Assembly: GCA_018970725.1 (NCBI GenBank)
Contig: JAGWVU010000001.1
Span: 62,001-126,000 of the forward strand
DNA length: 64,000 nt
Reading direction: 5' to 3'
DNA from: Verrucomicrobiota bacterium
GTDB taxonomy: Bacteria; Verrucomicrobiota; Verrucomicrobiia; Verrucomicrobiales; DEV007
Shown: piece after piece, positions 14,432 to 40,502 of the stretch
Position numbering within the stretch: the stretch's first letter is position 1
How the letters are laid out: every line of letters starts with the position of its first letter
Translations under genes and position numbers: made by a program
The notes under the pieces: generated by a model
The model's database searches: none
The model's input: only the letters and a program-made list of their open reading frames with translations
Told to the model about the DNA's origin: nothing

Positions 14432-15868
14432 ATGACCACCGCGCTTCTGCTCCTCCCGATTCTCGCCGAAGTCGCTCCCGGTGTGCCTTCCGTAGCCTTT
14501 TGGCCCGGTTTCTGGCGGGGATGTTTTCTGCTTCTTCTCGTCGTCCTGAACGGTTTTTTCGTCGCGGCTGAGTTTTCGATTGTCCGGGCGCGGGGAGGGC
14601 GACTCGAGGTCCTCCTGGAGCGCGGCGACGCTTCCGCGGCTCTTTTGCAGAAGATCGGAGGGCAGCTTGATTCGTATCTTTCGGTTACCCAGCTCGGCAT
14701 CACAGTTTCGAGCATTGCCTTGGGCGTGATCGCTGAGCCCTTTTTTTCCTACGGATTGGATCCGCTGTTGCGCGGGGCCGGGCACACCGATCCAACGCTG
14801 CTTGATCTGATTTCCTTCGGGGTTTCGTTTCTTGCGGTGACGTCGCTCCACGTGGTCATCGGGGAGTTGTTGCCAAAGAATCTGGCGATATTGCGGCCGC
14901 TGCAGACCGCTCTCTTCATCGTCCGTCCGCTCCAATGGGTCCACGCCGTGGCAAGCCCCGTGGTCTGGCTTATGGGAGGAACGGCGCGGGCCTTGCTGAA
15001 GTGGATCTTCCGGGTCGATCCGGTCAGCGAAAAGGAGATCGGGCATACGGCGGAGGAACTTGCGGTGCTGGTGAGTGCTTCCGAAAAGTCCGAGGTCACC
15101 GAGGTCGAGAAGGAAATTCTGATCAATGCGCTCGAGCTTAGCGAATTGGAAGCCCGAGAGATCATGCTGCCGCGCAACAAGGTCGTGGTTCTGGATATCA
15201 ACGACACCTTTGAGGAGAACTTTGCCAAGGCAATGGAATCGCGGCACACGCGTTTTCCTTTGGTCAACGGACACCTGGACCGCACTCTGGGGCTGATCCA
15301 CGTGAAGGACCTGATGCAAATTAACCGGGCCGCTGCTCCCGACTTGAAATCAATCATTCGTCCCTTGGAATTGGTTCCGGAGCGGATGGCCGCCGATCTC
15401 TTGCTCAAGAAGTTCCTCAGTTCCCGGGCCCACATGGCCTTGGTTGTGGATGAGTATGGCGGGTCGTTGGGGATCGTCACGCTGGACAATGTGGTCGAGG
15501 AGTTGGTTGGGGACATCAACGACGAGTTCGATGAGGCGGAGGTTGAGGGGAGCCGGTTCGAACGTCTGAGCGAGACCTCCTTCGAGGTGGACGGAACGCT
15601 GCCGATGTATGAGCTGGCCGATTACAGTGGGCTGGAGCTGGAAGACCCGGAAGTCTCCACGGTGGGTGGTTACGTGACCCATCGTTTGGGGCACCTGCCC
15701 AAGACCGGGGAGCGTTTGCGAGTGCAGGAGTACTGGGTCACCGTCACGGAGGCGGACGACCGGGTTATCGGAAAGCTGCACTTTGAGCGGATTTCGGGGG
15801 ACGGCCATCCCGACGACGCCGCACAGGGCGTGCCTCACGACGCCACGGAGGGAGCCTTGGCTTCTTGA
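14432..15868 (+). CDS. CNNM/CBS-pair transporter, hemolysin C/CorC family
   Basis: Predicted inner-membrane divalent-cation (magnesium/cobalt) exporter of the CNNM family, often annotated hemolysin. The 478-residue protein has an N-terminal DUF21/CNNM membrane domain (about 25-215, with LNGFFVAAEFSIVRARGGRL), a CBS pair (about 225-350, including MLPRNKVVVLD and HMALVVDEYGGSLGIVTL) and a C-terminal CorC/HlyC transporter-associated domain (about 365-450, with FEVDGTLPMYEL and TVGGYVTHRLGHLP). Domain order and length are standard. No Shine-Dalgarno is evident before the ATG at 14432. Confidence 0.93.
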   Translation: MTTALLLLPILAEVAPGVPSVAFWPGFWRGCFLLLLVVLNGFFVAAEFSIVRARGGRLEVLLERGDASAALLQKIGGQLDSYLSVTQLGITVSSIALGVIAEPFFSYGLDPLLRGAGHTDPTLLDLISFGVSFLAVTSLHVVIGELLPKNLAILRPLQTALFIVRPLQWVHAVASPVVWLMGGTARALLKWIFRVDPVSEKEIGHTAEELAVLVSASEKSEVTEVEKEILINALELSELEAREIMLPRNKVVVLDINDTFEENFAKAMESRHTRFPLVNGHLDRTLGLIHVKDLMQINRAAAPDLKSIIRPLELVPERMAADLLLKKFLSSRAHMALVVDEYGGSLGIVTLDNVVEELVGDINDEFDEAEVEGSRFERLSETSFEVDGTLPMYELADYSGLELEDPEVSTVGGYVTHRLGHLPKTGERLRVQEYWVTVTEADDRVIGKLHFERISGDGHPDDAAQGVPHDATEGALAS

Positions 15869-15981: not shown

Positions 15982-16911
15982 TCAGTCGACCTTTTCTGGG
16001 GATGCCTTGAGGAATAGGGCCTCGAGACCCGCCTTCCCGGCCATTTCCCGGCCTTCTTCCGCCCCCAAGACCAGCAAAGCCGTTGCCCAGGCATCGGCCT
16101 GAATCGCGCTCGGTGCAATCACGGACACCGAGACGGTATCGTGGGCAACCGGGCGCCGGGTCCGGGGATCGATGATGTGGGTGACAGTCCCTTCTTTCCG
16201 CTGTTCCCGCTGGCGGTAGGTGCCGGAAGTGGCCAGAGCCTCGTTCCGGAGAGAGAGCGAGGTGGCCGCCGACTTTCCAACAATCCCGGGATCTTGGATT
16301 CCCACGCGCCACCCGCCGCCGGTGGGACCGTCTCCCCGGGCCAGCAACTCGCCGCCCAGCTCGAGGAGAAAATTGTGGTGACCGGCGGCGAGGAGTCGGG
16401 AAGCGATGCGTTCCAAGGCGAAGCCTTCGGCCAAAGCGGAGAGATCGAGGGTCGGCGCCGACGTCTTTTTGCGGAGGGCAGGTCGGCAGGGGTCATAATC
16501 GATCAGCTCGAGGCAGGGTTGCGCCCCGGGATTGGCGAGAGAGGGCGGACCGAAGCCGAAGGCCGCGGTCAGGGGACCAACGGTGGGATCGAAGGCGCCC
16601 GAGGACCGATCATGCACCTCCCTCGCGAGGAGAAACGCTTCGGAGAGTTCGGCAGAGACAGGAAACCATTGATGGGGCGGGGTTTGGTTGAACCGCGAAA
16701 TTTCGGAATCCGCCCGCCAGGTGGAAAAGACGGACTCGAGGGCGTCGAGCTCTCGCTGAACTTGAGCTTGATCTGGGGCGGAGCCGAGGGTGCGGAGCGA
16801 CCAAGTGGTTCCCATGGAAGGGCCGCCGCAGAGGAACTCATTGCCGACCGGGCGACAGGACACCGAAAGAAACAGGGGGACGAGGATGAATGCTTGGGGC
16901 GAAAGATTCAC
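15982..16911 (-). CDS. apbE: FAD:protein FMN transferase (ApbE), lipoprotein
   Basis: Transfers FMN from FAD onto threonine residues of exported or periplasmic domains. The open frame extends far upstream, but that part is antisense to the preceding gene; the GTG at 16911 gives a signal peptide with lipobox SVSC and lies 11 bp after the upstream stop. The 309-residue protein shows the ApbE motifs PSMGTTWSL, SALAEGFALERI, LLELGGELLARGDG, HIIDPRTRRPV and ADAWATALLVLG. The immediate upstream gene encodes two FMN_bind domains with flavinylation sites, so the substrate is almost certainly that protein. It is third in the operon 20854 to 15982. Confidence 0.93.
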   Translation of the reverse strand: MNLSPQAFILVPLFLSVSCRPVGNEFLCGGPSMGTTWSLRTLGSAPDQAQVQRELDALESVFSTWRADSEISRFNQTPPHQWFPVSAELSEAFLLAREVHDRSSGAFDPTVGPLTAAFGFGPPSLANPGAQPCLELIDYDPCRPALRKKTSAPTLDLSALAEGFALERIASRLLAAGHHNFLLELGGELLARGDGPTGGGWRVGIQDPGIVGKSAATSLSLRNEALATSGTYRQREQRKEGTVTHIIDPRTRRPVAHDTVSVSVIAPSAIQADAWATALLVLGAEEGREMAGKAGLEALFLKASPEKVD

Positions 16912-16922
16912 GGCAGTCGGGT

Positions 16923-18566
16923 TCAGCCCCAGACGGTGAGAACGGTTCCGGTGGCCAGCAACCCGAGGGCCATCCAGTCGCGCCCGGAAAACCGATCGGA
17001 AGAAGCGCCGGTGCGCAGGAACCGGAGCAGGGCCCCGGTGGGGCAACCGAACTTGCAGTAGGCCAGTGGATGGAACACCGAGGCGAGCAGACCGATGATC
17101 GCGATAACGATGCTGGCAAGGCCCGAAGCTCGGAAGACCCAGGCGTCGAACGGCTCGAACGCGGCAAGATTCGGTTTCAGTCCGGCGACCACCGCGAGGA
17201 AAAGCGTGAGGAGCAGGAAGAAAGGAAGGCGTGCCATCCAGCGCTGCCACGATTCGGGGAGTGTGACCTTCTTGCGGGTGAGCTTGCCGAGCCATTGCTG
17301 GGCGGCTCCGTGAGGACAAAGGTGGTGGCAGTAAAGTTGACGGCCCGTGAACAGAGGCACCAACAGGGAGGCGGCCGCCAAAAAGGCCATTCCCGGCAAG
17401 CTGCGCCAAGCGAGATCGTTGGCAGCCCATCCCGCCAGCAAAGATTGGGAAAGAAGATCGCCCGAAAGCAGACCGAGGTAGAGGATCAGGATGGCATTCC
17501 AGACAAGGCGCACGGAGCGGTGACCGCGCCAGGGGCTGAAGCTGAGAAAAATCGCGAAGCCGACCAGCGCGATCAGGATCCCGTCGTGGAGCCGGAAAGG
17601 AAATCGGGGCACCGGGGAAGGTCCCTCGTCCGCCCGGAGCCTCCGCCGGACCCCTTCGAGCACGGCCAAGCTGGTCCGGGTGGCACCCGAAACGCCGGAA
17701 ACGCCTGCGGACTGGAAGTCGAAATCACGCATCTCCCGCACGGAGCGTCCGGAAAACCCCGGAAGAAAGCGCGAGTCCTTGGTGACGATGGCGAGATACT
17801 CTTCCGTCTCGTAAGAGTCGCGAACCTGAATGCCGCGAATCATTTCACCTTTGGGATCGAGGATCACCAGGCTATCGGTCGGGCCTTTGTAACCCGTGAC
17901 CGCATCGCTGGCCGGCGAAGTGCGCAAAATCCGGGCGAGCGTTGTTCCGTTGGCATCGGTCAGGATGACTCCGCCCAATGGCGAGGGATCCGGTTCGATG
18001 GATTGGGCGGTGGGAAAAAGGGACTGCAATTCCCGGAGTTCGATGGGGTAGGGGAAGAGAAGGGAGGCTCGCTCCGTCCGGCCGAGTGCCTTGAGGATGC
18101 CGCGGGTGATCGCGGAGCTGGTCAACGTCGCGCCGCTGACCTGACGGATGGTCTGGTCCTCCTCAAAAGGCCGCATCTGTTGCCAGAAACCATCGTCCCG
18201 AACTACGCGCCGCACATGGTCGGCAGTGTCCGCGCTCCAGCGCAGCTTGGCCCCGAGCACCTTGCCGCCCCGGTCGAGCGCCACCAAGGTGTTGCTGGGG
18301 CCGGAGTAGCCGACGATATCCCGGGCCCGCGGCATGGTCTGAAGAAGCATGCCGAGGAGATCACCGAAGTCGTCGGTGACATATTGCACGCCGGTCTCCC
18401 CGTCGGGCCGGCTGAGATGGGCCGCGCCGGGAAACCAGATTCGCGCCGTATCAAGCCCCAGAGGCTCGGAAGTGTCGTGGCCGGGACCTTGGCACCGGAT
18501 CAGGGTGAGGGCACCGGCGAGAACGGACAACCGCCAGAAGCGGAGGAGCCAGACCCGAAGATTCAC
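16923..18566 (-). CDS. NosR-like membrane flavoprotein with two FMN_bind domains and 4Fe-4S motifs
   Basis: Predicted transmembrane electron conduit. The 547-residue protein has an N-terminal signal or anchor, two tandem FMN_bind domains, and then a membrane domain of about six helices. The flavinylation motifs are QVSGATLTSS and GVSGATRTSL, each fitting SGATxT, the ApbE target site. Two cysteine motifs in the membrane part, YCHHLCPHG and YCKFGCPTG (CxxxCP), resemble NosR/NapH iron-sulfur sites. It starts at GTG 18566, overlapping the upstream FAD-oxidoreductase stop (GTGA), and the ApbE gene follows after 11 bp. Canonical NosR has one FMN_bind domain, so the tandem pair is unusual. The electron donor and final acceptor are not evident. 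Confidence 0.88.
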   Translation of the reverse strand: MNLRVWLLRFWRLSVLAGALTLIRCQGPGHDTSEPLGLDTARIWFPGAAHLSRPDGETGVQYVTDDFGDLLGMLLQTMPRARDIVGYSGPSNTLVALDRGGKVLGAKLRWSADTADHVRRVVRDDGFWQQMRPFEEDQTIRQVSGATLTSSAITRGILKALGRTERASLLFPYPIELRELQSLFPTAQSIEPDPSPLGGVILTDANGTTLARILRTSPASDAVTGYKGPTDSLVILDPKGEMIRGIQVRDSYETEEYLAIVTKDSRFLPGFSGRSVREMRDFDFQSAGVSGVSGATRTSLAVLEGVRRRLRADEGPSPVPRFPFRLHDGILIALVGFAIFLSFSPWRGHRSVRLVWNAILILYLGLLSGDLLSQSLLAGWAANDLAWRSLPGMAFLAAASLLVPLFTGRQLYCHHLCPHGAAQQWLGKLTRKKVTLPESWQRWMARLPFFLLLTLFLAVVAGLKPNLAAFEPFDAWVFRASGLASIVIAIIGLLASVFHPLAYCKFGCPTGALLRFLRTGASSDRFSGRDWMALGLLATGTVLTVWG

Positions 18567-20854
18567 GGGATCGGCACGACTTGCACGGCGTCGGCATGGA
18601 TCGCGCCGTCCACCTCTTGATTGGTGAGAGTTACCGAGGAGGCTTGTCCGGGTTCGAATTTCCAGGTGCCGAGAACCCGGTAACCGGCGGGACCTGCGGG
18701 CTGGCGTTGATCGACCTTGAGGGTGGTTTCCCCCTCCGCGGAGCGAATCGTGACCGGTGCGTTGGAGGCGCGGTTTTCATGGGGTTGCCAGTAAAGCCTG
18801 ACCTCATGCATCCCAGCTTGGGCGACGAAAAACTCGAATCTGGCGGCCCCTTTTCCAGCTTGGGAGTGGTAGAGATAGTGATCCCCGATGTAGTCGGAGA
18901 GTCCTTCTCCGGACTTCCAGCTGCCGACGAGCTTGGCCGCGGCATCGTCGATCACGATTCCCTCGAGTTCCGCCGGGTCGATGAACTCGATCCCGGAGGG
19001 AAGGAATTTGGGTCCTCCCGGTGGGAGGTGCAGATCGGAGGTCAAGGAGTCCCGTCGTGACCAGCCGGGTTGGCGGCAAAGCTCCTTGAGGAGATCGAGA
19101 TGTTTTTCGTAAACGCCACGCGGCGAGGTTTCGTGCCGGACGGCGATCCACGAGGCCTTGCCGACGACTTCCCCCATCATCCCGCAGGTCCGCATGACGC
19201 GGGTGGTTCCCAAGGCGAGACGGTCGAGACTGATGTTGCGCCCGGCCATGAACAGGTTCTCGACTTCCTTGGAGTAGAGGGTGCGGTAGGGGACCAAATA
19301 GCCTTCCTTGCGTTCGCCTTCGAAGTGACCGAACTCGGCGCGGGAGATGAAGGGGTTGTCCTTGTAGGTTTTCAGATACTCCTCCTTGGGGTAATGGAGG
19401 TCCAAGCCCCAGGTGGTGGCCACCAGACCGTCCTCGAACTTGCGACCCGATTGAATGTCCGCGCCGGTCAGGATGACATCACCGGTGAGCAGGCGGGACT
19501 CCCGGTTGCCCCCGATGCAGGCTACCCACGCCATGGCTTGGGTGGAATATTTTTCGGGGAGATTCCGTTTCAGCGAGGAAAAAGCGCCGAAAACCGCCCG
19601 GAGATTCCAGTCCCGGATCAACTCGAGATCGTTGATCGGGTGCTTGTCGAAACCGCTCTCCCAGAACCACTCTCCCTTGAGGTAGTTCCGGCCCGCCCAG
19701 GTGGAGGCTCGAGGCTCGGGAAACTCGTCGAGCTGGAGGGTCAGGGCCCACGGAGTTTCCGGCCAGGGAGCCGGTGCGCCGGTGTCCTCGCAATACCACA
19801 TGTTGCTCATTCCGAGGTGTCCTTTCCCGGCCATCGTGAAGGGGGCTCCGGCAAGGGCGCCGATCGTCCCATGACCGGTGCAATCCGCGAAGAGCCTGCC
19901 GGGAAACCGCTTTTCCTGTCCGGTGCGGGTATCGAGAGCGTGAACGGCCATGATGCGCTTACCCTGCATCTCGACTTTGGTGCCATGATGGTTGAGAAAC
20001 AGCGCAAGGTTTTTCTCGGCCCGAACCACGGTCTCCTTCAGATTGTCCCCGTATTCCTCAGCAGATCCCGGGCTGCTCTTGGCGTGATCAGCGAATTCCT
20101 CGACGATCTCGCCGAGCCTAGGGAATTCATTCACCCGGGTCTTGCCCTGGGCCCAGACGCGGACTTCGCTGCTGCCGTTTCCCCCGAGGACCGGGCGGTT
20201 CTGGATCAGGGCCACCCGCAGTCCCTGGCGCGCGGCGGAAATCGCGGCCGCGGTTCCGGCGTATCCGCCGCCGGTCACCACCAAATCAAAGTTCCCCGCG
20301 TCCGGAGGTGCCGCCGGCAAGCCGAGAGCCGAGCGCCGGAAGGAAAGCAACGCCTCGCCGGCGGCCGGCGGCGGCGGGCTTCCGGGGGAGGTGAACAGAA
20401 TGGCGTCGCAACGGCCCGCGAAGCCGGTCAGATCATGGAGCCGGATCTCGGTCGAAGCGGAAGAAATTTCGATGGTCCCGCCATCCTGCCAATGCCAGTC
20501 CGCTCCCTTGGTCCCGAACCCGGCGCCCAATGGTTTCCCTCCGACGACCAATTGGAAGCGTCCCGGAGCGCCAGGAGCGGACCAAGGACCGACCCAATCC
20601 TTGGTCCGGACATGAACCTGCCAGGTCCCGGTGGACGGGAACACGACCGTGGTGACGGCGTCGGCAACAGGGCGGCCCATGCCGTGGGCGAGAAGATACG
20701 GGGACCCCATGATCTCGATGAACTGGGTATCGATGGTCCATCCACCCGGGGTGTCGAACGATTCGGCTTCGACGAAAACCTGCGACGCGCGCAGGCTCGA
20801 ACCCGGGCCGGTGCAGAGCGCGACCAAAAGAAGAGCGGGGAAAAACGAACGCAT
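18563..20854 (-). CDS. Secreted FAD-dependent oxidoreductase with golvesin-like C-terminal domain
   Basis: Predicted exported flavoenzyme of unknown substrate. The 763-residue protein has a signal peptide (ALLLVALC), an N-terminal beta-sandwich region (about 30-160, carbohydrate-binding-like), and an FAD_oxidored (PF12831-type) domain with VVTGGGYAGTAAA and the LFADCTGHGTIGALAGAPF region. A C-terminal stretch, TLKVDQRQPAG...LGTWKFEPGQ...GAIHADAVQVVP, matches the golvesin/xanthan-lyase-associated beta domain. A TTG two codons upstream is possible, but ATG 20854 is preferred. It is first in an operon with the NosR-like protein and ApbE. Similar FAD_oxidored proteins are abundant in Planctomycetes and Verrucomicrobia and are assumed to act on sugars. 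Confidence 0.85.
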   Translation of the reverse strand: MRSFFPALLLVALCTGPGSSLRASQVFVEAESFDTPGGWTIDTQFIEIMGSPYLLAHGMGRPVADAVTTVVFPSTGTWQVHVRTKDWVGPWSAPGAPGRFQLVVGGKPLGAGFGTKGADWHWQDGGTIEISSASTEIRLHDLTGFAGRCDAILFTSPGSPPPPAAGEALLSFRRSALGLPAAPPDAGNFDLVVTGGGYAGTAAAISAARQGLRVALIQNRPVLGGNGSSEVRVWAQGKTRVNEFPRLGEIVEEFADHAKSSPGSAEEYGDNLKETVVRAEKNLALFLNHHGTKVEMQGKRIMAVHALDTRTGQEKRFPGRLFADCTGHGTIGALAGAPFTMAGKGHLGMSNMWYCEDTGAPAPWPETPWALTLQLDEFPEPRASTWAGRNYLKGEWFWESGFDKHPINDLELIRDWNLRAVFGAFSSLKRNLPEKYSTQAMAWVACIGGNRESRLLTGDVILTGADIQSGRKFEDGLVATTWGLDLHYPKEEYLKTYKDNPFISRAEFGHFEGERKEGYLVPYRTLYSKEVENLFMAGRNISLDRLALGTTRVMRTCGMMGEVVGKASWIAVRHETSPRGVYEKHLDLLKELCRQPGWSRRDSLTSDLHLPPGGPKFLPSGIEFIDPAELEGIVIDDAAAKLVGSWKSGEGLSDYIGDHYLYHSQAGKGAARFEFFVAQAGMHEVRLYWQPHENRASNAPVTIRSAEGETTLKVDQRQPAGPAGYRVLGTWKFEPGQASSVTLTNQEVDGAIHADAVQVVPIP

Positions 20855-20972
20855 CGGCAACTTTCTGCGCTTGGGAAGGGGATGGGCAAGTCAATTCTTG
20901 CCGGGAGCCTGGAGAATCGTCGACCCGCGCGTGGACGGAACGAGGATCATGTGGTTGTTTGTAGGGGTCATC

Positions 20973-33254: not shown

Positions 33255-34418
33255 TCAAACGACCGGGAAGGGGACCCATTTGTCGCTGGACTGGGAACTC
33301 CGGACGGCGGTCTCAATGAAGGCCATGCCGGCGATCCCGTCGCGGATGTCGGGAAAATCGTAACCCTCCGCCGGGGCGGGCCGACCTTCGATCCGATCCG
33401 CGATGGCCCCCGCCGCAGCCACGTAGATGTTGGCAAACGCTTCAATGAAGCCCTCCGGATGGGCGAACGGGGTGCGTGAATTCGCCTTGGCCTCGGGGCC
33501 GAGGTAATCGTTGCCCCTCCGATAAACCCGGCGGGGGGCATTGGCATACTTCACGAGAAGATCGTTGGGGTCCTCCTGATGCCATTCGATGGACGCCTTG
33601 GTGCCGTAGGCCCGGATGGAGAGGGCGTTTTCGTCCCCGTTCGAAATTTGCGAGGCGTAGATCAGGCCCTTGGCTCCTCCGCGGAAACGGACGAGGATGT
33701 TGCCGTCGTCATCGAGCTGGCGTCCGGGAATGAAGGCGGTGAGCTCCGCGCACAAGGACTCGATTTCCACCCCGCAGATGTAGCGGATGAGGTTGTGGGC
33801 ATGGGTGCCGATATCGCCAATGCAATTGGAGACCCCGGAAACGCTGGGATCGGAACGCCAGTTGGCGATCTGTCCCTGCCCGTCGCCTTCGACATCGCCG
33901 ACAGCGTAGCCCTGGGGATATTCGGCCACGATCTTGAGCAATCTTCCCAGTTCACCGGCCCGCACCATCCGCCGCGCTTCCTTCACCATGGGATACCCGG
34001 TGTAGTTGTGCGTCAGGGCAAAAACCAGTCCGGTGCGGGTTACGATGGAGCGCAGCTGGAGCGCTTGTTCCAAATTGAAGGTCACCGGTTTGTCGCAGAT
34101 GACGTGGATCCCGGCCTCGAGGAAGGTTTTGGCGACCTCGAAGTGCAGATTGTTGCGGACAACGATGCTGACGAAGTCGATCCGCTTTTCCGGAGGCAGC
34201 GCAGCTTCGGCGCGGGCCATTTCCTGATAACTGGAATAGACCCGGGAGGGATCGAGGAAGAAATCCTCACCGGACAACCGGGATTTTTCCGGGTCGGCAG
34301 AGAAGGCGCCGGCCACCAGCTCGATCTTGCCGTCGAGATTGGCCGCCATGCGGTGGACCTGACCGATGAAGGCGCCGCGACCGCCGCCCACCATGCCCAT
34401 GCGAAGTTTTCGTTTCAT
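33255..34418 (-). CDS. Gfo/Idh/MocA family oxidoreductase
   Basis: NAD(P)-dependent dehydrogenase of unknown sugar or inositol-like substrate. The 387-residue protein has the Rossmann glycine motif GMVGGGRGAFIGQVHRMAA at the start and the CDKPVTFNLEQAL motif (EKP-type Lys near residue 115). The substrate side shows GDIGTHAHNLIRYI, with conserved Asp and His of the family. It forms a two-gene cluster with the next upstream Gfo/Idh/MocA gene (39-bp gap), so both probably act in one catabolic route. Confidence 0.9.
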   Translation of the reverse strand: MKRKLRMGMVGGGRGAFIGQVHRMAANLDGKIELVAGAFSADPEKSRLSGEDFFLDPSRVYSSYQEMARAEAALPPEKRIDFVSIVVRNNLHFEVAKTFLEAGIHVICDKPVTFNLEQALQLRSIVTRTGLVFALTHNYTGYPMVKEARRMVRAGELGRLLKIVAEYPQGYAVGDVEGDGQGQIANWRSDPSVSGVSNCIGDIGTHAHNLIRYICGVEIESLCAELTAFIPGRQLDDDGNILVRFRGGAKGLIYASQISNGDENALSIRAYGTKASIEWHQEDPNDLLVKYANAPRRVYRRGNDYLGPEAKANSRTPFAHPEGFIEAFANIYVAAAGAIADRIEGRPAPAEGYDFPDIRDGIAGMAFIETAVRSSQSSDKWVPFPVV

Positions 34419-34457: not shown

Positions 34458-35537
34458 TCAGCAAGCGACCGGCGCACCGGTCCGGGCCGAAAGATAGACG
34501 GCATCGATGATCTTCATCAGGGCAAGCGCCTGGGCCGGGGTATTGAGGGGAGCCTCGGTGCCGTTGATGGCATGGATGAAGTTGGCTGCCGACCGGATCC
34601 GGCCCATATCCTCACAGGCGGGCACCACGATGGAGCGGTTCACCGAGTGACCGTTTTCCTGAACGTAGAGTTCACAGCTGTCCAGCGCCGTGGCGTCGAG
34701 GCCATCCCGGCCAAAGAGTCGCTCCACCTTGCCCCCGGCGCGGGTTCCTTGGAAGACAACGCTGACCTCCTCACGCTTCACCATCTCCGCCCACGATACC
34801 TGTAGGCTGAGAACCTGACCGGTGCGGAAGGTGACGAATCCATGGGCTGCCGCCTCCACGTCCGTGGTCCCACCGACCACATCCGGAAGCCCCCACGGGC
34901 CCTTGAACGATTTGTCGTTGATGAAATCGCCGAAGGTTTGGCCCAAAACATGAGCAGGCTCGGGATACCCCATGAAAAAGAGCGCCAGATCGATCATGTG
35001 AAGCAAATCGATCAGCGGTCCCCCACCGGCCAACGCCTTGGTGGTGAACCAACCGCCGAATCCGGGGATGCCCGTGCGCCGGATCCACTTGGCTTGGGCG
35101 GAATTGATGGTGCCGACCTGACCGCCCCGGATGTAATCCATCATGGCGAAGGATTCCGGACGGGCCCGGTTGTTGAAGTTGAACATCAGCGTCTTCGAGG
35201 CCGCCTGGGCCGCCGCGATCATCTGTTCGACTTCCCCGGCGCTGATGGCGGGCGGCTTCTCACAGAACACATGCTTGCCCGCTTGCAGCGATTGGATAGC
35301 GAGGGGCGCATGGAATTTGTTCGGGACGATGATCGACACCGCATCAATCCCGGGGTCGGCGAGCAGGCTGGCGACATCGCCAAACGCGCGGGGGATCCCC
35401 TGGCTGGCCGCGGTGCGTTGCGCCGCCGCCTCGTTCACGTCGGCGATCGCGACGATTTCCGCTCCGGCGGATTGAAAGCCGTCGATGTGATAGCGGACCA
35501 TGCCGCCCGCTCCGATAATTCCTACCTTGGTTGCCAT
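34458..35537 (-). CDS. Gfo/Idh/MocA family oxidoreductase (second copy)
   Basis: NAD(P)-dependent sugar-type dehydrogenase. ATG 35537 (MATKVGIIGAGGMVRYHIDG) is chosen because the Rossmann motif begins at once; the frame is open 34 codons further up. The 359-residue protein has FCEKPPAISAGEVEQM (EKP lysine) and GGPLIDLLHMIDLALFFMG, with the conserved D-L-x-x-H of the substrate site. It is clearly different in sequence from its neighbour at 33255. Specific substrate is unknown. Confidence 0.9.
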   Translation of the reverse strand: MATKVGIIGAGGMVRYHIDGFQSAGAEIVAIADVNEAAAQRTAASQGIPRAFGDVASLLADPGIDAVSIIVPNKFHAPLAIQSLQAGKHVFCEKPPAISAGEVEQMIAAAQAASKTLMFNFNNRARPESFAMMDYIRGGQVGTINSAQAKWIRRTGIPGFGGWFTTKALAGGGPLIDLLHMIDLALFFMGYPEPAHVLGQTFGDFINDKSFKGPWGLPDVVGGTTDVEAAAHGFVTFRTGQVLSLQVSWAEMVKREEVSVVFQGTRAGGKVERLFGRDGLDATALDSCELYVQENGHSVNRSIVVPACEDMGRIRSAANFIHAINGTEAPLNTPAQALALMKIIDAVYLSARTGAPVAC

Positions 35538-35620
35538 GCTGTGGGAGTGGCCGGGGGCCACGATTTGGATGCGATGTCTTCTAAATTGTGTCCCCCCCGG
35601 TGGCAACTGGGAAATTCGAG

Positions 35621-36547
35621 CTAGGGGCCGGAGGGCCACGCACGGTGCACGACCCGGGCGGCGCCCGCGCCCGCCGCCGAAGCCTCCTCGAAGCGGAATT
35701 TGAGGCCGTCCGGCACCGTGGAACGCTCGGGGCCCGAAACGCTCAGGGCGGTGGCCCAGGCATCCGCGAGGGTTCCAGAGGGAGCGATGACATTGACCAT
35801 CCGCCGGACGGTGAGTCCGATTCCGGTGGCGGGATCAAGGATATGGGAATAGCCGACCCCTCCGATCTCAGCCGCCTGCATCGTGTCGCCGGAAGTCGAA
35901 AGGGCCTGATGCCGAAGGCGCACGGAGTCCTCAAGACCGTCCGGGTCATCAAGACTCGCCACGCCCACCTTCCAGCCGGTTTCCCCTGGGGGGGCGTCCC
36001 CGGCCACAATGTCCCCACTCGCCGCCACAATGGCCCGGGGAAAACCCCGCTCCCTGAGGATCCCAAGGGCCGCGTCGGCCGCATGGCCCTTGGCGATTCC
36101 GCCGAGATCAAGGCGCATCCCGTCCACCTGCAAGATAGCAGCCCCGTCGGGCAACAAACGAACTTTGCTCCAGCCTGTCAAGGCTCTGGCCTGCGCGATG
36201 CGTTCCGGAGCCGGAAGCAATGCATCCCGCCGGCTCTGCCTCCAGAGTCGCTTGAGAGGGCCGATCGTGACATCAAACGCGCCCCCGGAGAGCCGGTTCA
36301 CTTCATCCGCCCGGCGCAAAATCCCCGCGAGGTCCGGCGAGAGGTGGACCACCGTTCCGGCCGGTTGGCGGCAGAACCGCATCAGTTCGCTCTCCGGCGC
36401 GTAGTCGGAGAACGCGTCGTTGAGCTGGTGGACGCGGGCCCAGGCGGCGCGAACGGCTTCCCCGGCGGCGACGGGGTCCTCCGCATAAAGCTCGACCCGG
36501 AACAGGGTTCCCATAGCCGGTTCCTGGAACCGACAGCGAACCTGCAC
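35621..36547 (-). CDS. apbE: Second ApbE-like FAD:protein FMN transferase
   Basis: Predicted flavin transferase. The 308-residue protein has PAMGTLFRVELY, DLGGIAKGHAADAAL, VAASGDIVAGD, YSHILDPATG and ADAWATALSVSG, all ApbE signatures. GTG 36547 is the first conventional start codon, but it follows directly on an in-frame hydrophobic stretch (IRALFFAGLSVL) that would make a signal peptide; that stretch contains no ATG, GTG or TTG. It follows the cytochrome-SUMF1 gene by 65 bp on the same strand, but that protein has no visible FMN attachment motif, so the substrate is unknown. Confidence 0.88.
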   Translation of the reverse strand: MQVRCRFQEPAMGTLFRVELYAEDPVAAGEAVRAAWARVHQLNDAFSDYAPESELMRFCRQPAGTVVHLSPDLAGILRRADEVNRLSGGAFDVTIGPLKRLWRQSRRDALLPAPERIAQARALTGWSKVRLLPDGAAILQVDGMRLDLGGIAKGHAADAALGILRERGFPRAIVAASGDIVAGDAPPGETGWKVGVASLDDPDGLEDSVRLRHQALSTSGDTMQAAEIGGVGYSHILDPATGIGLTVRRMVNVIAPSGTLADAWATALSVSGPERSTVPDGLKFRFEEASAAGAGAARVVHRAWPSGP

Positions 36548-36612: not shown

Positions 36613-38163
36613 TCAGTTCTTTTTGGGGTCCTTGAGTTCGTTCTCCTCACCCCGGCCGGAGTTCCAGATGGCATGCATCGTCTCCGCAGGCGGAACCTGC
36701 AAAGGGCGCACCAGACGGAACCCGAGCCATTCCCCATCCGTGTGATACCAAATGGACTTGGGAAGCTGGGGATCCTGGATCTTCCATTTTGGATTCGACC
36801 TGAATCGGGTGGAAGACCGGAGCAAATCCATGTCATCATACCAGCTCCCGCCGCGGGCCACCCTCGGGTAGAGCAGTTTTCCGGGCTTTACATAGGGGTT
36901 CTCCACCAAGCCGGTGGCCGCCGGATAAGGTTCATACCAGTCGAGAACCCACTCGATCACATTGCCGTGCATGTCGTGCAAGCCCCACGGATTGGGCTTC
37001 TTGAGGCCCACTTTCTGGTATTTCTCGCCGGCATTGTCCCAAAACCAGGCGTAGTCGCCACCCTGGGCCGGGTCGTCCCCCCAGCTGAAGGCGGTCGTCG
37101 TTCCGGCACGGCAGGCATACTCCCACTCGGCTTCAGTGGGCAACCGGTAAAAGTGCCCGGTTTGGGCGCTGAGCCACTGGCAATACTTCAAGGCCGCGTG
37201 CTCCGTCATACTGATGGCCGGGAATCCCTTCGTTCCCATCCCGAAGCTCATCTCCGTGTAGGGCGTGGTCGGCTTCGAAGTGATGAACGCGGCATCGGCG
37301 TCGGCCGGAATGGTTTCCGGGGAGCCGTTTTTCCGCCGGGCCACGTCGGTGATCATGAACGGTTCATACTCATCCCAGGTGACCTCGAACTTCCCCATCC
37401 AAAAGGGATCCACCTTGACCTTGCGCTGCGGTCCTTCGTCTTCCTTGCGCCCGGCCTCCGAGGCAGGACTGCCCATGAGGAACTCCCCCCCGGGGATCGG
37501 CACCATGGTATAGGCGGCCCCGGTGAGCGGCACCTTGGATTCGTAAGCCTTCATATCCGAAGGCGACTTCTCGGTATGGGCCGCCATGACCTTCTCCCGG
37601 ATCGTTTTCACGAGGTCGAGATTGTCCGCCGGCCCTTCCGGTTCCGGTCCACCCAACTTGAGACCCTGGGGCCACACCGCCCCCTGCTCGCTCCAAAGCC
37701 GGATCATCCTCACTTCGTCCGCCGTGAAGGGGCCGCCGCGGGCGAAGAGCGGCTGGATGTTGTTCGCGAAATCCATCCGCGGGCTTTCCTTCAGAACCAT
37801 CCCGTCCGGCCACGGCGCCCCGCCGAGGATCCACTCCTTGAGAATGTCCGTCTGCGATGGGACGAGAGGCTTCTTCGGCGGCATAATGAGGTCGTCCGTC
37901 GGCTTGAGCGTGGTCGTCCACCACACCGATGACTTCTCTGGATCGCCGGGCGTGATGCCGGGATTGTCCTCTCCACCGGCAAAGGCCGCCTCCTTGGTGT
38001 CGAGCCGCACGTCTCCTTCCTGCTTCTCCGGACCGTGACAATGGATGCAGGCCCCCTCGAGAATCGGGCGCACGTCCCGGTTGAAGTCGACCTTCGATTC
38101 CGCAGCCGTCGCCGTGGCGACAGAAAGACCGGAAATCAGAGCAATGTGGCGGAAAGAAAGCAT
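36613..38163 (-). CDS. Planctomycete-type cytochrome c / SUMF1-domain protein
   Basis: Exported protein of unknown role. ATG 38163 gives a signal peptide (HIALISGLSVATATAAES); the frame is open a further 100 codons but lacks sense. Residues about 20-130 form a PSD1-type cytochrome domain with the haem-binding CIHCH (38035-38049). A region of about 70 residues follows (FANNIQPLFARGG), then a formylglycine-generating-enzyme-type (SUMF1) domain from about 230 to the end, with TEAEWEYACRAG, GLHDMHGNVIEW, RVARGGSWYDD and GFRLVRPL. The Cys pair that makes true FGE catalytic is absent (RGGSWYDDMDLLRSSTRFRS-type region), so it is not a sulfatase activator. The fusion is common in the PVC group. Confidence 0.85.
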   Translation of the reverse strand: MLSFRHIALISGLSVATATAAESKVDFNRDVRPILEGACIHCHGPEKQEGDVRLDTKEAAFAGGEDNPGITPGDPEKSSVWWTTTLKPTDDLIMPPKKPLVPSQTDILKEWILGGAPWPDGMVLKESPRMDFANNIQPLFARGGPFTADEVRMIRLWSEQGAVWPQGLKLGGPEPEGPADNLDLVKTIREKVMAAHTEKSPSDMKAYESKVPLTGAAYTMVPIPGGEFLMGSPASEAGRKEDEGPQRKVKVDPFWMGKFEVTWDEYEPFMITDVARRKNGSPETIPADADAAFITSKPTTPYTEMSFGMGTKGFPAISMTEHAALKYCQWLSAQTGHFYRLPTEAEWEYACRAGTTTAFSWGDDPAQGGDYAWFWDNAGEKYQKVGLKKPNPWGLHDMHGNVIEWVLDWYEPYPAATGLVENPYVKPGKLLYPRVARGGSWYDDMDLLRSSTRFRSNPKWKIQDPQLPKSIWYHTDGEWLGFRLVRPLQVPPAETMHAIWNSGRGEENELKDPKKN

Positions 38164-38447
38164 GGCAAAAACGGAACGTTCAGTCTCCCGGACAGAAGTG
38201 CGGGGCTGATACTTCAATGCAAAACACCCCGGTTTGCAAATGGTTTGCGGGGCCCACCGCGCATTGCGCCCATTGCACCGGAAAGACAATACACCTTGGT
38301 TTTTAAAATAGATGAAAAAGAAATAGAAATTAGCCAAAACTTTTGTAGCTTTTCGCATTGCCATTGGTGTCGGTCGCGACCAAAAAATACGGTCGTATCC
38401 GCGCCGCATTGTGGCTTGTTGTTTTCCTGAGAAGCCGGAAGTCCGCC
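38164..38447. other. Divergent intergenic region
   Basis: Between the cytochrome-SUMF1 gene (leftward) and the ankyrin-transpeptidase gene (rightward) lies 284 bp with no RNA gene or protein seen. The middle (38298-38345) is unusually AT-rich for this genome and is the likely promoter zone. A loose rightward pair TTGGTG (38364) and TACGGT (18 bp later) is the best promoter seen, but it is weak. Confidence 0.4.
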
Positions 38448-40502
38448 GTGAGTCCAGATCCACGCCAGCACAGTGTCCTTGGTTCTTTCCGGCCCGGCCG
38501 GTTCATCCTGCGTCTCGTCCTTGTGGGCGCCCTGACGCTTCTGGTGGTCGGTTCCGGGATTGCTCTGGTCGACCGATTTTTTGAAATCGATTGGTTCACG
38601 AAACGGCGGCTCGCGCGGGAGGGCTACGGAACGGACGTCGCCGCCGTGCACCGGGCCATCGGGCGTGCCGATTTTTTGGCGTTGACCCGTTTGAAGGCGG
38701 TCGGCGTGCCTTTGGACCAGGCGGATGCATCGGGCCAGACGCCATTCCAGAAGGCGGTGCTGGCCGGCCGTCTGGATTTGGTGCACCACCTCACGGGTCT
38801 CGGAGTCGAAGTTGATCTCTCACCGGTCCGGGGAAGGCCTCTCGAGGTCCTCGCCATGGTCGGGGAATCCCGGGAAATGTTGCCCTATCTGCTCGCGCAC
38901 GGGGGGAACCCGGACGTCGAGGTGGAGACGGGCCAACCCGCCCTGGTCTGGGCCATCCGGGGGAACCGGGATGAGACCTTTGATCTGCTGCTCAAGAAGG
39001 GAGCTTCGATCCGCAACGGCGGTGCCGGTGGCAGTCCGCTGGCCATCGCGCTCCGTCAGGGCAATCTCCGGGCGGTGGGAAAACTGCTGTCCCTCGGGGC
39101 GGAGGCGGATGGTTTCACGGTGGAGGGCAAGCCGCTCACGGTGGACTGTCTGGAGCGGGGGCGCCCGGATCTTGTGAAACGTCTCGTCATGGCCGGAGCG
39201 TCACCGGAGACGGAAGGGACCGGAGGGGAAAGCCTCATGGAGGCCTCGTTCCGGCTGCGCTCGAAGGAGATCTTCCAACTCTGCCTAATGCGCGGGGCGG
39301 ACATGGAGAAAGCGCGGATCGGTCGTTTCGGCCTGCTCGAATCCGCGTGTCAGGCGAACGCACTCGACTGGGTGGAACTCCTCTTGCAACACCGCGCGGA
39401 CGCGTCGCGGCGCAGCGAAGCCAATGGCGAAGCACTCTGGTGGAATGAGTTGCGTCAGGGACGCCCGGCCGTCGCCGAAATTTTGTTGGGAGCCGGCGCG
39501 GACGTCGACGGTCGCAACAAGGACGGTTTGACACCGATCGAGCGCGCCATTGAGGATTGCGATTTCCGTTTGACCCGTTATCTCTTCGGCAAAGGGGCCA
39601 AGGCACCGGGCAGCAGTCTTTGGGGGCCGATGCAGGCGAAGCGCCATGACGTGATGCGTCTTTTGGCGGCTCACGGAGACGATCTGAACAATCCGACTTC
39701 CACCGGGTTCACCCTGCTCGGCTTTGCCGTGACCCAAGGGGACGTGACCGCAGCCTCCGTGCTCTTCGAATATGGGGCGCGTTATGATCCCAACGACCGG
39801 CCCGGCGGGCATCGTCTCTTGGAATGGGCGATCGCGAACCGCCAGGCTGCGATGGCGGAGTTGCTCCTGGAGAACGGCGCGGATCCGAACGCCCGCCTCA
39901 TGCAACCGGCCACCCCGGAATTTCTTGCCAGATTTTCGGAGAACGGGAGCCTGAGCTATCGCCTGAAAAACGAGCGAAACCTCAGCCCGATCATGCTGGC
40001 GGCCGGATCCAAGCAGTTGGACTTGGCCAAGGCTCTGGTGAAAAAGGGGGCGCAACGCAACCGACCGACCAGCGATCATACCTACCCGGTGACCTTCGCG
40101 ATCAATGCGGGGGACATTCCGATGGCGCAACTCATGCTCGGGCGGGAACCGGAGACGGACGGCAAACATGCGCGGAAGATCGTGGTCTCGATCGATGAGC
40201 AAAAGGCCCGGTTTTACAAGGACGGAGAATTGCTCTATGCGACGGGTTGTTCCACGGGGCGGTCCGGGTTTCGCACGCCGCGCGGCACCTTCGTGATCAC
40301 AGACAAGGCTCGGCTCCGTCACTCGACGCTTTATGGCTCTGCCATGCCGTTTTTCATGCGCTTGAGCGGCAGCGCGGTGGGGATGCATCAGGGGAACTGC
40401 CCGGGGTATCCCGCGTCTCATGGCTGTATCCGGTTGCCCTACACCTACGCCAAGAATTTCTTCAGTGTGGCCGAGGTCGGCGACGTGATCGTGGTGGAAT
40501 GA
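38448..40502 (+). CDS. Ankyrin-repeat protein with C-terminal L,D-transpeptidase (YkuD) domain
   Basis: Predicted envelope enzyme, probably making or modifying peptidoglycan cross-links. The 684-residue protein starts with one transmembrane helix (FILRLVLVGALTLLVVGSG). About 480 residues of ankyrin-like repeats follow (about 65-560, with LLSLGAEAD, ILLGAGADV, LLLENGADPNARLM and similar units of about 33 residues). The YkuD domain covers about 565-684. Its catalytic motif HQGNCPGYPASHGCIRLP is intact, with the nucleophile Cys near residue 660. The start is uncertain: GTG 38448 is preferred over a TTG at 38358. Joining ankyrin repeats to YkuD is rare. Confidence 0.85.
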   Translation: MSPDPRQHSVLGSFRPGRFILRLVLVGALTLLVVGSGIALVDRFFEIDWFTKRRLAREGYGTDVAAVHRAIGRADFLALTRLKAVGVPLDQADASGQTPFQKAVLAGRLDLVHHLTGLGVEVDLSPVRGRPLEVLAMVGESREMLPYLLAHGGNPDVEVETGQPALVWAIRGNRDETFDLLLKKGASIRNGGAGGSPLAIALRQGNLRAVGKLLSLGAEADGFTVEGKPLTVDCLERGRPDLVKRLVMAGASPETEGTGGESLMEASFRLRSKEIFQLCLMRGADMEKARIGRFGLLESACQANALDWVELLLQHRADASRRSEANGEALWWNELRQGRPAVAEILLGAGADVDGRNKDGLTPIERAIEDCDFRLTRYLFGKGAKAPGSSLWGPMQAKRHDVMRLLAAHGDDLNNPTSTGFTLLGFAVTQGDVTAASVLFEYGARYDPNDRPGGHRLLEWAIANRQAAMAELLLENGADPNARLMQPATPEFLARFSENGSLSYRLKNERNLSPIMLAAGSKQLDLAKALVKKGAQRNRPTSDHTYPVTFAINAGDIPMAQLMLGREPETDGKHARKIVVSIDEQKARFYKDGELLYATGCSTGRSGFRTPRGTFVITDKARLRHSTLYGSAMPFFMRLSGSAVGMHQGNCPGYPASHGCIRLPYTYAKNFFSVAEVGDVIVVE

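Follow-up and report, generated by a model that had tools for sequence, protein, structure and literature searches.

Flavinylated transmembrane systems built around NapH-like proteins have been reported with alcohol oxidase, nitrite reductase, nitrous oxide and organohalide partners (Meheust et al. 2021, PMC8238504). In this eLife 2021 survey, such modules serve reductases as well as oxidases, and the reactions of most of them are given as unknown. Here, we describe a related operon from a Verrucomicrobiota bacterium (assembly GCA_018970725.1, contig JAGWVU010000001.1, positions 62,001 to 126,000); the window is this whole stretch of 64,000 nucleotides. Its three minus-strand genes combine a predicted flavin adenine dinucleotide (FAD) enzyme, a membrane protein with two domains for flavin mononucleotide (FMN) and an FMN transferase:

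18563..20854, minus strand: gene A, 763 amino acids; predicted secreted FAD_oxidored protein with an N-terminal EAESF/GGW module and a Golvesin_C tail (open reading frame, Pfam, aligned orthologues)
16923..18566, minus strand: gene B, 547 amino acids; membrane protein with two FMN_bind domains and two CX3CP motifs (Pfam, AlphaFold, hydropathy)
15982..16911, minus strand: gene C, 309 amino acids; ApbE (FAD:protein FMN transferase) with a lipoprotein-type N-terminus (Pfam, motifs)

An earlier reading of the letters alone (the sequence-only reading) had described three tightly joined genes, and the arrangement was confirmed at exactly the same coordinates: the stop codon of A overlaps the GTG start codon of B in GTGA, and B and C are separated by 11 bp. 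It is very probable that A is functionally coupled to B, as argued by gene order in two phyla, by co-occurrence controlled with a tree and by the placement of B-associated A sequences in one clade. This names a specific family of secreted oxidoreductases as the partner of one widespread version of the NapH-like module, on evidence that holds without gene adjacency. An electron-transfer module and a flavoenzyme that were both orphans become a single system, open to testing in two phyla.

B is a member of the NapH-like class of flavinylated systems described earlier. As in the systems of PMC8238504, it is a PF12801 membrane protein (Fer4_5, 49.0 bits against a cut-off of 22, in two stretches) with N-terminal FMN_bind domains (61.4 bits, also in two stretches) that are predicted to be extracytosolic, its gene is followed by that of ApbE, and its partner oxidoreductase is modular. 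Unlike the systems in the passages of that survey searched here, it has two FMN_bind domains in tandem, a FAD_oxidored/Golvesin partner predicted to be secreted, and relatives in which ApbE is repeatedly fused to its C-terminus. In build, B is closest to RdhC/PceC (Buttet et al. 2018, PMC5928378): in both, the FMN part is placed outside, between helices 1 and 2, CX3CP occurs twice and a ferredoxin domain is lacking at the C-terminus. However, PceC has one FMN domain and six helices, whereas B has two and seven predicted helices (the extra one C-terminal), and the neighbours of B are A and C, not a reductive dehalogenase. More than one FMN_bind domain in a single extracytosolic chain is also found in multi-flavinylated proteins, which PMC8238504 and PMC10339131 describe particularly from Gram-positive bacteria; unlike there, the FMN domains of B are fused to a CX3CP membrane module. 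With NosR, B shares FMN_bind and two CX3CP motifs as well as the predicted maturation by ApbE, but it reaches only 49.8 bits against the cut-off of 1000 of the NosR equivalog model, shows no match to a C-terminal ferredoxin-type (Fer4) [4Fe-4S] domain in Pfam (its structural model ends after the last helix), and lies in an operon without nos genes. "NosR-like", as the sequence-only reading had it, is thus not tenable in the strict sense; assignment of B to NosR, NapH or RnfG was rejected, as all curated cut-offs failed.

The arrangement had also been called unusual. This has to be narrowed, since multi-FMN_bind and NapH-like modules are both in print (PMC8238504), and what stands is that neither a double FMN_bind on a NapH-like protein nor its pairing with this FAD_oxidored family was found in the literature searched. 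Likewise, no FAD_oxidored/golvesin/Verrucomicrobiota pairing with ApbE was found there, in a search that covered few subscription papers and lay outside the supplementary tables of the eLife survey; the pairing of a NapH-like B with a FAD_oxidored A may therefore already be listed in that supplement.

The motifs that define B are the following:

18120..18137, minus strand: flavinylation-type motif 1 of B, SGATLT, amino acids 144-149 (sequence, alignment)
17673..17690, minus strand: flavinylation-type motif 2 of B, SGATRT, amino acids 293-298 (sequence, alignment)
17313..17330, minus strand: CX3CP motif 1 of B, CHHLCP, amino acids 413-418, on the cytoplasmic side by prediction
17040..17057, minus strand: CX3CP motif 2 of B, CKFGCP, amino acids 504-509, on the cytoplasmic side by prediction

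In nearly all of 35 aligned relatives both flavinylation sites are [ST]GA[ST]-like (site 1 reads SGST in five), all 35 have the second cysteine motif and 34 also the first, and such wide retention argues against chance. The AlphaFold model of B has a predicted local distance difference test (pLDDT) score of 84.7 and seven helices. Together with hydropathy it places the two FMN domains outside, after helix 1 and before helices 2-7, and both CX3CP motifs on the inner side, which has positively charged flanks. In fold as well as in profile comparisons the two FMN domains resemble NqrC and RnfG, and their mutual identity of 31% (E 7e-16) identifies them as a tandem duplication at the sequence level. 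T147 and T296 are the predicted sites of covalent FMN. Two SGATxT and two CxxxCP motifs had already been noted, and all four stand, but the label "iron-sulfur" for the latter was too strong and Fe-S binding by them is putative: the role of CX3CP in RdhC and NosR is unsettled, and the iron of NosR is explained by two 4Fe-4S centres (PMC5928378), the C-terminal motifs of which are absent from B.

The coupling between A and B was assessed from gene order, co-occurrence and phylogeny. The gene-order sample consisted of 80 named genome loci with B, 70 of which were usable, i.e., had enough upstream DNA or were linked. In 25 of these 70 loci B is preceded by an A orthologue in the same orientation, no more than 341 bp away in 20 of them and separated from B by a Na/Pi-cotransporter-type gene in four. 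Conservation of the order, which had been set beforehand as the check that could refute the sequence-only reading, thus extends over two phyla, Verrucomicrobiota and Planctomycetota; inside the taxonomic order it is seen in families f1, f2 and f6, and elsewhere in the same class in G231, where B is fused to ApbE. The phylogenetic profile of 142 genomes of the order gave 89 with both A and B, three with A only, one with B only and 49 with neither. Three genomes with A-like matches at only 41-45% identity were not scored as having A; scoring them changes these counts to 89/6/1/46. As a control for ancestry, independent pairs differing in B were taken from an ffh tree of 91 genomes: among 13 such pairs, A was concordant in 10, opposite in none and undecided in three (p=0.002), and co-occurrence from shared ancestry alone was therefore rejected. 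No association was seen for a FAD_oxidored paralogue of the same genome that served as control (2.5 vs 1.5, p=1). Since family f4 (relatives of Prosthecobacter and Verrucomicrobium) has both A and B at separate loci, the profile signal is not due to linkage. In the A tree, every B-associated sequence falls into one starred clade of 50 and relatives from B-less genomes fall outside; the exceptions in this clade are L133/L134 and two in-order cases. We conclude that A and B are one respiratory module, gained and lost together across Verrucomicrobiota even when their genes are not neighbours.

Several variants of these loci were recorded. A same-strand Na/Pi cotransporter gene with a PhoU domain lies between A and B in L168, L183, L193 and L194 (typed in L193, cluster members elsewhere). 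In the Planctomycetota loci L215 and L223, the order is ApbE - A - B and B is longer (~745 amino acids), with an extra C-terminal membrane region that is PGPGW-like below the cut-off; the second motif of B in L215 is FGAT, not SGAT. A or B was also found in L147, L152, L171 and L198, from metagenome-assembled genomes titled Akkermansia muciniphila. These titles are probably misassigned; the small g15 genomes of the sampled order are without both genes.

C scores 236.9 bits for ApbE (PF02424), above the cut-off, and its active-site motifs FSTWRADSEI, HIIDP and ADAWATAL are intact. Its N-terminus reads as lipoprotein-type (LSVSC), a similar lipobox is present in many separate C orthologues, and the ApbE lipoprotein proposed earlier is borne out. 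Among the loci, ApbE either adjoins B or, in 13 of them, follows the last helix of B as a fused domain in the same reading frame (L039, L043, L061, L135, L162, L191, L192, L196, L198, L212, L217, L224 and L225). These fusions suggest that the C-terminus of B is outside and that B is a natural ApbE substrate. The adjacent gene, the 13 fusions and the fact that the only FMN_bind domains in the genome of the window are the two in B support C as a dedicated maturase of B, as predicted from sequence.

The domain layout of A is as follows:

20780..20854, minus strand: predicted Sec signal peptide of A, amino acids 1-25, read from sequence as MRSFFPALLLVALCTGPGSSLRASQ
20375..20779, minus strand: N-terminal beta module of A, amino acids 26-160, conserved in all aligned A orthologues and weakly CBM35-like by fold
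19109..20287, minus strand: FAD_oxidored domain of A, amino acids 190-582, with the GGGYxG Rossmann motif and LGGNGSSE (Pfam, alignment)
18575..18949, minus strand: Golvesin_C domain of A, amino acids 636-760, resembling the C-terminal module of Paenibacillus xanthan lyase 6f2p

The description of A as a secreted FAD oxidoreductase with a golvesin-like tail agrees with the profiles: FAD_oxidored (PF12831) is passed over the full domain (211 bits, cut-off 27, profile positions 1-408 of 416) and Golvesin_C (PF25275) matches with 84.7 bits. Both the signal and its cleavage are predicted, the aligned A orthologues recurrently have a hydrophobic N-terminus, and A would be exported via Sec. The GGGYxG motif is conserved across the orthologues, and A is predicted to bind FAD. 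In the N-terminal module, E29, A30, E31, G37, G38 and W39 are invariant; Foldseek matched A to the GH26-CBM35 structure 3zm8, and this CBM35 likeness is weaker than the match of the last ~130 residues to the 6f2p module, which holds by both sequence and fold. The likeness to xanthan lyase concerns the tail only, the catalytic domains being unrelated. Like the flavinylated fumarate-reductase-like enzymes (PF00890), A is a predicted secreted FAD enzyme linked to FMN_bind chemistry, but it belongs to PF12831 and the FMN domains are carried by another protein, in the membrane. A fumarate-reductase-like identity for A was rejected, because the PF00890 match (33.9 bits, profile positions 1-122 of 414 only) is confined to the Rossmann part and does not include a full-length catalytic domain. 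Alpha-glycerophosphate oxidase is among the flavoprotein folds that match A. Regarding its neighbourhood, A adjoins a BNR_4 protein in some relatives, and in others the order is B, Gfo/Idh/MocA, A. Carbohydrate-type neighbours (Gfo/Idh/MocA, BNR_4, 3-keto-disaccharide hydrolase and, by eye, sulfatase-like genes) occur in several relatives. No neighbour family common to the A loci of family f4, in which A and B are unlinked, was found, and therefore no substrate was assigned.

Taken together, the following path can be proposed. C, on the outer face of the inner membrane, would attach FMN to the two SGAT threonines of B, a NapH/RdhC-like membrane protein with both FMN domains toward the periplasm. 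A, carrying FAD after Sec export, would oxidise an extracytoplasmic substrate, probably a carbohydrate or another hydroxyl-bearing compound, and electrons would pass from its FAD to the two FMNs of B, then by way of its membrane module into the quinone pool, and finally to heme-copper oxidases, two of which are encoded in the genome of the window. Oxidation by A is favoured because of its carbohydrate-binding-like modules, the carbohydrate-type neighbours and the two oxidases. The sequence-only reading had already suggested a chain serving the secreted oxidoreductase. From this, the coupling of A to B and the role of ApbE as maturase of B have stood up, whereas direct contact between A and B, the quinone as partner, the electron direction and the class of substrate are what we infer. 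That A, B and C make up a self-contained module for extracytoplasmic electron transfer, in which substrate oxidation feeds the quinone, has in our view an even chance of being right. Verrucomicrobiota and Planctomycetota are known for polysaccharide degradation. It is a more doubtful, tentative extension that A founds a respiratory glycan-oxidising family in the two phyla, passing electrons from extracellular or periplasmic polysaccharides directly to the quinone pool via a dedicated double-flavin membrane wire.

A number of observations weigh against this path. On the side of the enzyme, A has Q or H in place of the acidic residue (E/D at the end of the second strand) that as a rule holds the FAD ribose, its fold model is middling (pLDDT 73, weak around the active site) and the closest full-length folds are generic flavoproteins only. 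The golvesin tail is missing from the ~610-amino-acid A of most of family f2 and from L044 of f6, the carbohydrate reading is drawn from modules and scattered neighbours, and no computation shows the electron direction or the substrate. On the side of the pairing, the A-B gene order is lost in f4 and B has a single FMN domain in some relatives. Some FMN_bind-free genomes outside the class (G284, G345, G351) encode enzymes with 50-54% identity to A over its first 600 residues, so that A-type catalysis does not always need B. Finally, in G147 and G160 a golvesin-bearing A shares its operon with a BNR_4 protein and B is absent; both genomes encode another FMN_bind protein, which in G160 has SGATVS and CX3CP-type motifs. 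The FMN_bind-free genomes and these two cases suggest that enzymes of this type arose earlier or are more widely spread than their link to B. Incomplete assembly is likely behind the exception G048 (75% complete), but as the whole cause of the exceptions it was rejected, since it does not account for G147 and G160.

The path could also run in the opposite direction, with quinol reducing the FMNs of B and A acting as a reductase in the periplasm, in the manner of the fumarate-reductase-like, RdhC/PceC and NosR systems. We regard this as unlikely but serious, because the characterised NapH-like proteins PceC and NosR are discussed as donors to reductases; fumarate-reductase flavoproteins are also among the sequence matches of A, via the Rossmann part only. 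Against it are the heme-copper oxidases of the genome, the best family of A, which is FAD_oxidored and not FAD_binding_2, its carbohydrate-binding-like modules, and the loci examined, among which no dedicated anaerobic reductase context was seen.

An improbable reading is that B and C are a general flavin conduit for several secreted enzymes, with A as one customer and the adjacency partly historical. It would fit the loci in which B stands beside a different, double FAD_oxidored-type protein (L056, L057, L059, L188, L190, L199, L203, L213), the single-FMN B in an ABC/FtsX/CrtC cluster, and G039, which has B without A. However, A is present in 89 of the 90 genomes with B, even when unlinked, and the profile association is specific to A and not shared by another FAD_oxidored paralogue. 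Still less probable is that B and C serve to mature A, to protect it or to recycle its flavin, instead of carrying catalytic electrons: gene order and profile coupling are equally compatible with it, and for NosR a role in NosZ activation is discussed alongside electron transfer (PMC5928378), but the conservation of the two flavinylation sites and of both CX3CP motifs in two phyla is more in line with an electron path than with chaperoning.

The double FAD_oxidored-type protein in the loci just listed has 1129-1184 amino acids and is encoded divergently beside B; the Pfam run on L056 and L213 also gave an F5/F8 type C match. In these genomes, A is elsewhere or was not found within the locus. 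The single-FMN B belongs to a conserved cluster in L062, L064, L065 and L072, typed in L065 as an ABC ATPase, a MacB/FtsX permease, a CrtC-like lipocalin and a methyltransferase.

A, B and C form an isolated operon, since ffh starts divergently 118 bp upstream of A and a plus-strand gene (14432-15868) converges on C downstream. A defence role was rejected, there being no PADLOC match. The scan of the A/ffh intergenic region gave no sigma-70-like promoter, and the terminator-like sites found were generic only; the region is nonetheless the probable site of the operon promoter. The further features of the surroundings are:

20855..20972, no strand: divergent A/ffh intergenic region, 118 bp, probable operon promoter site
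34458-35639, minus strand: Gfo/Idh/MocA gene beside a second ApbE gene
33255-34418, minus strand: another Gfo/Idh/MocA gene beside the second ApbE gene

This second ApbE (35621-36547, minus strand) has no evident signal peptide and its gene overlaps the first of the Gfo/Idh/MocA genes, which is followed by the other; the genome has no second FMN_bind protein. Adjoining it is a minus-strand gene (36613-38463) for a protein that joins PSCyt1 (planctomycete-type cytochrome c) and FGE-sulfatase domains.

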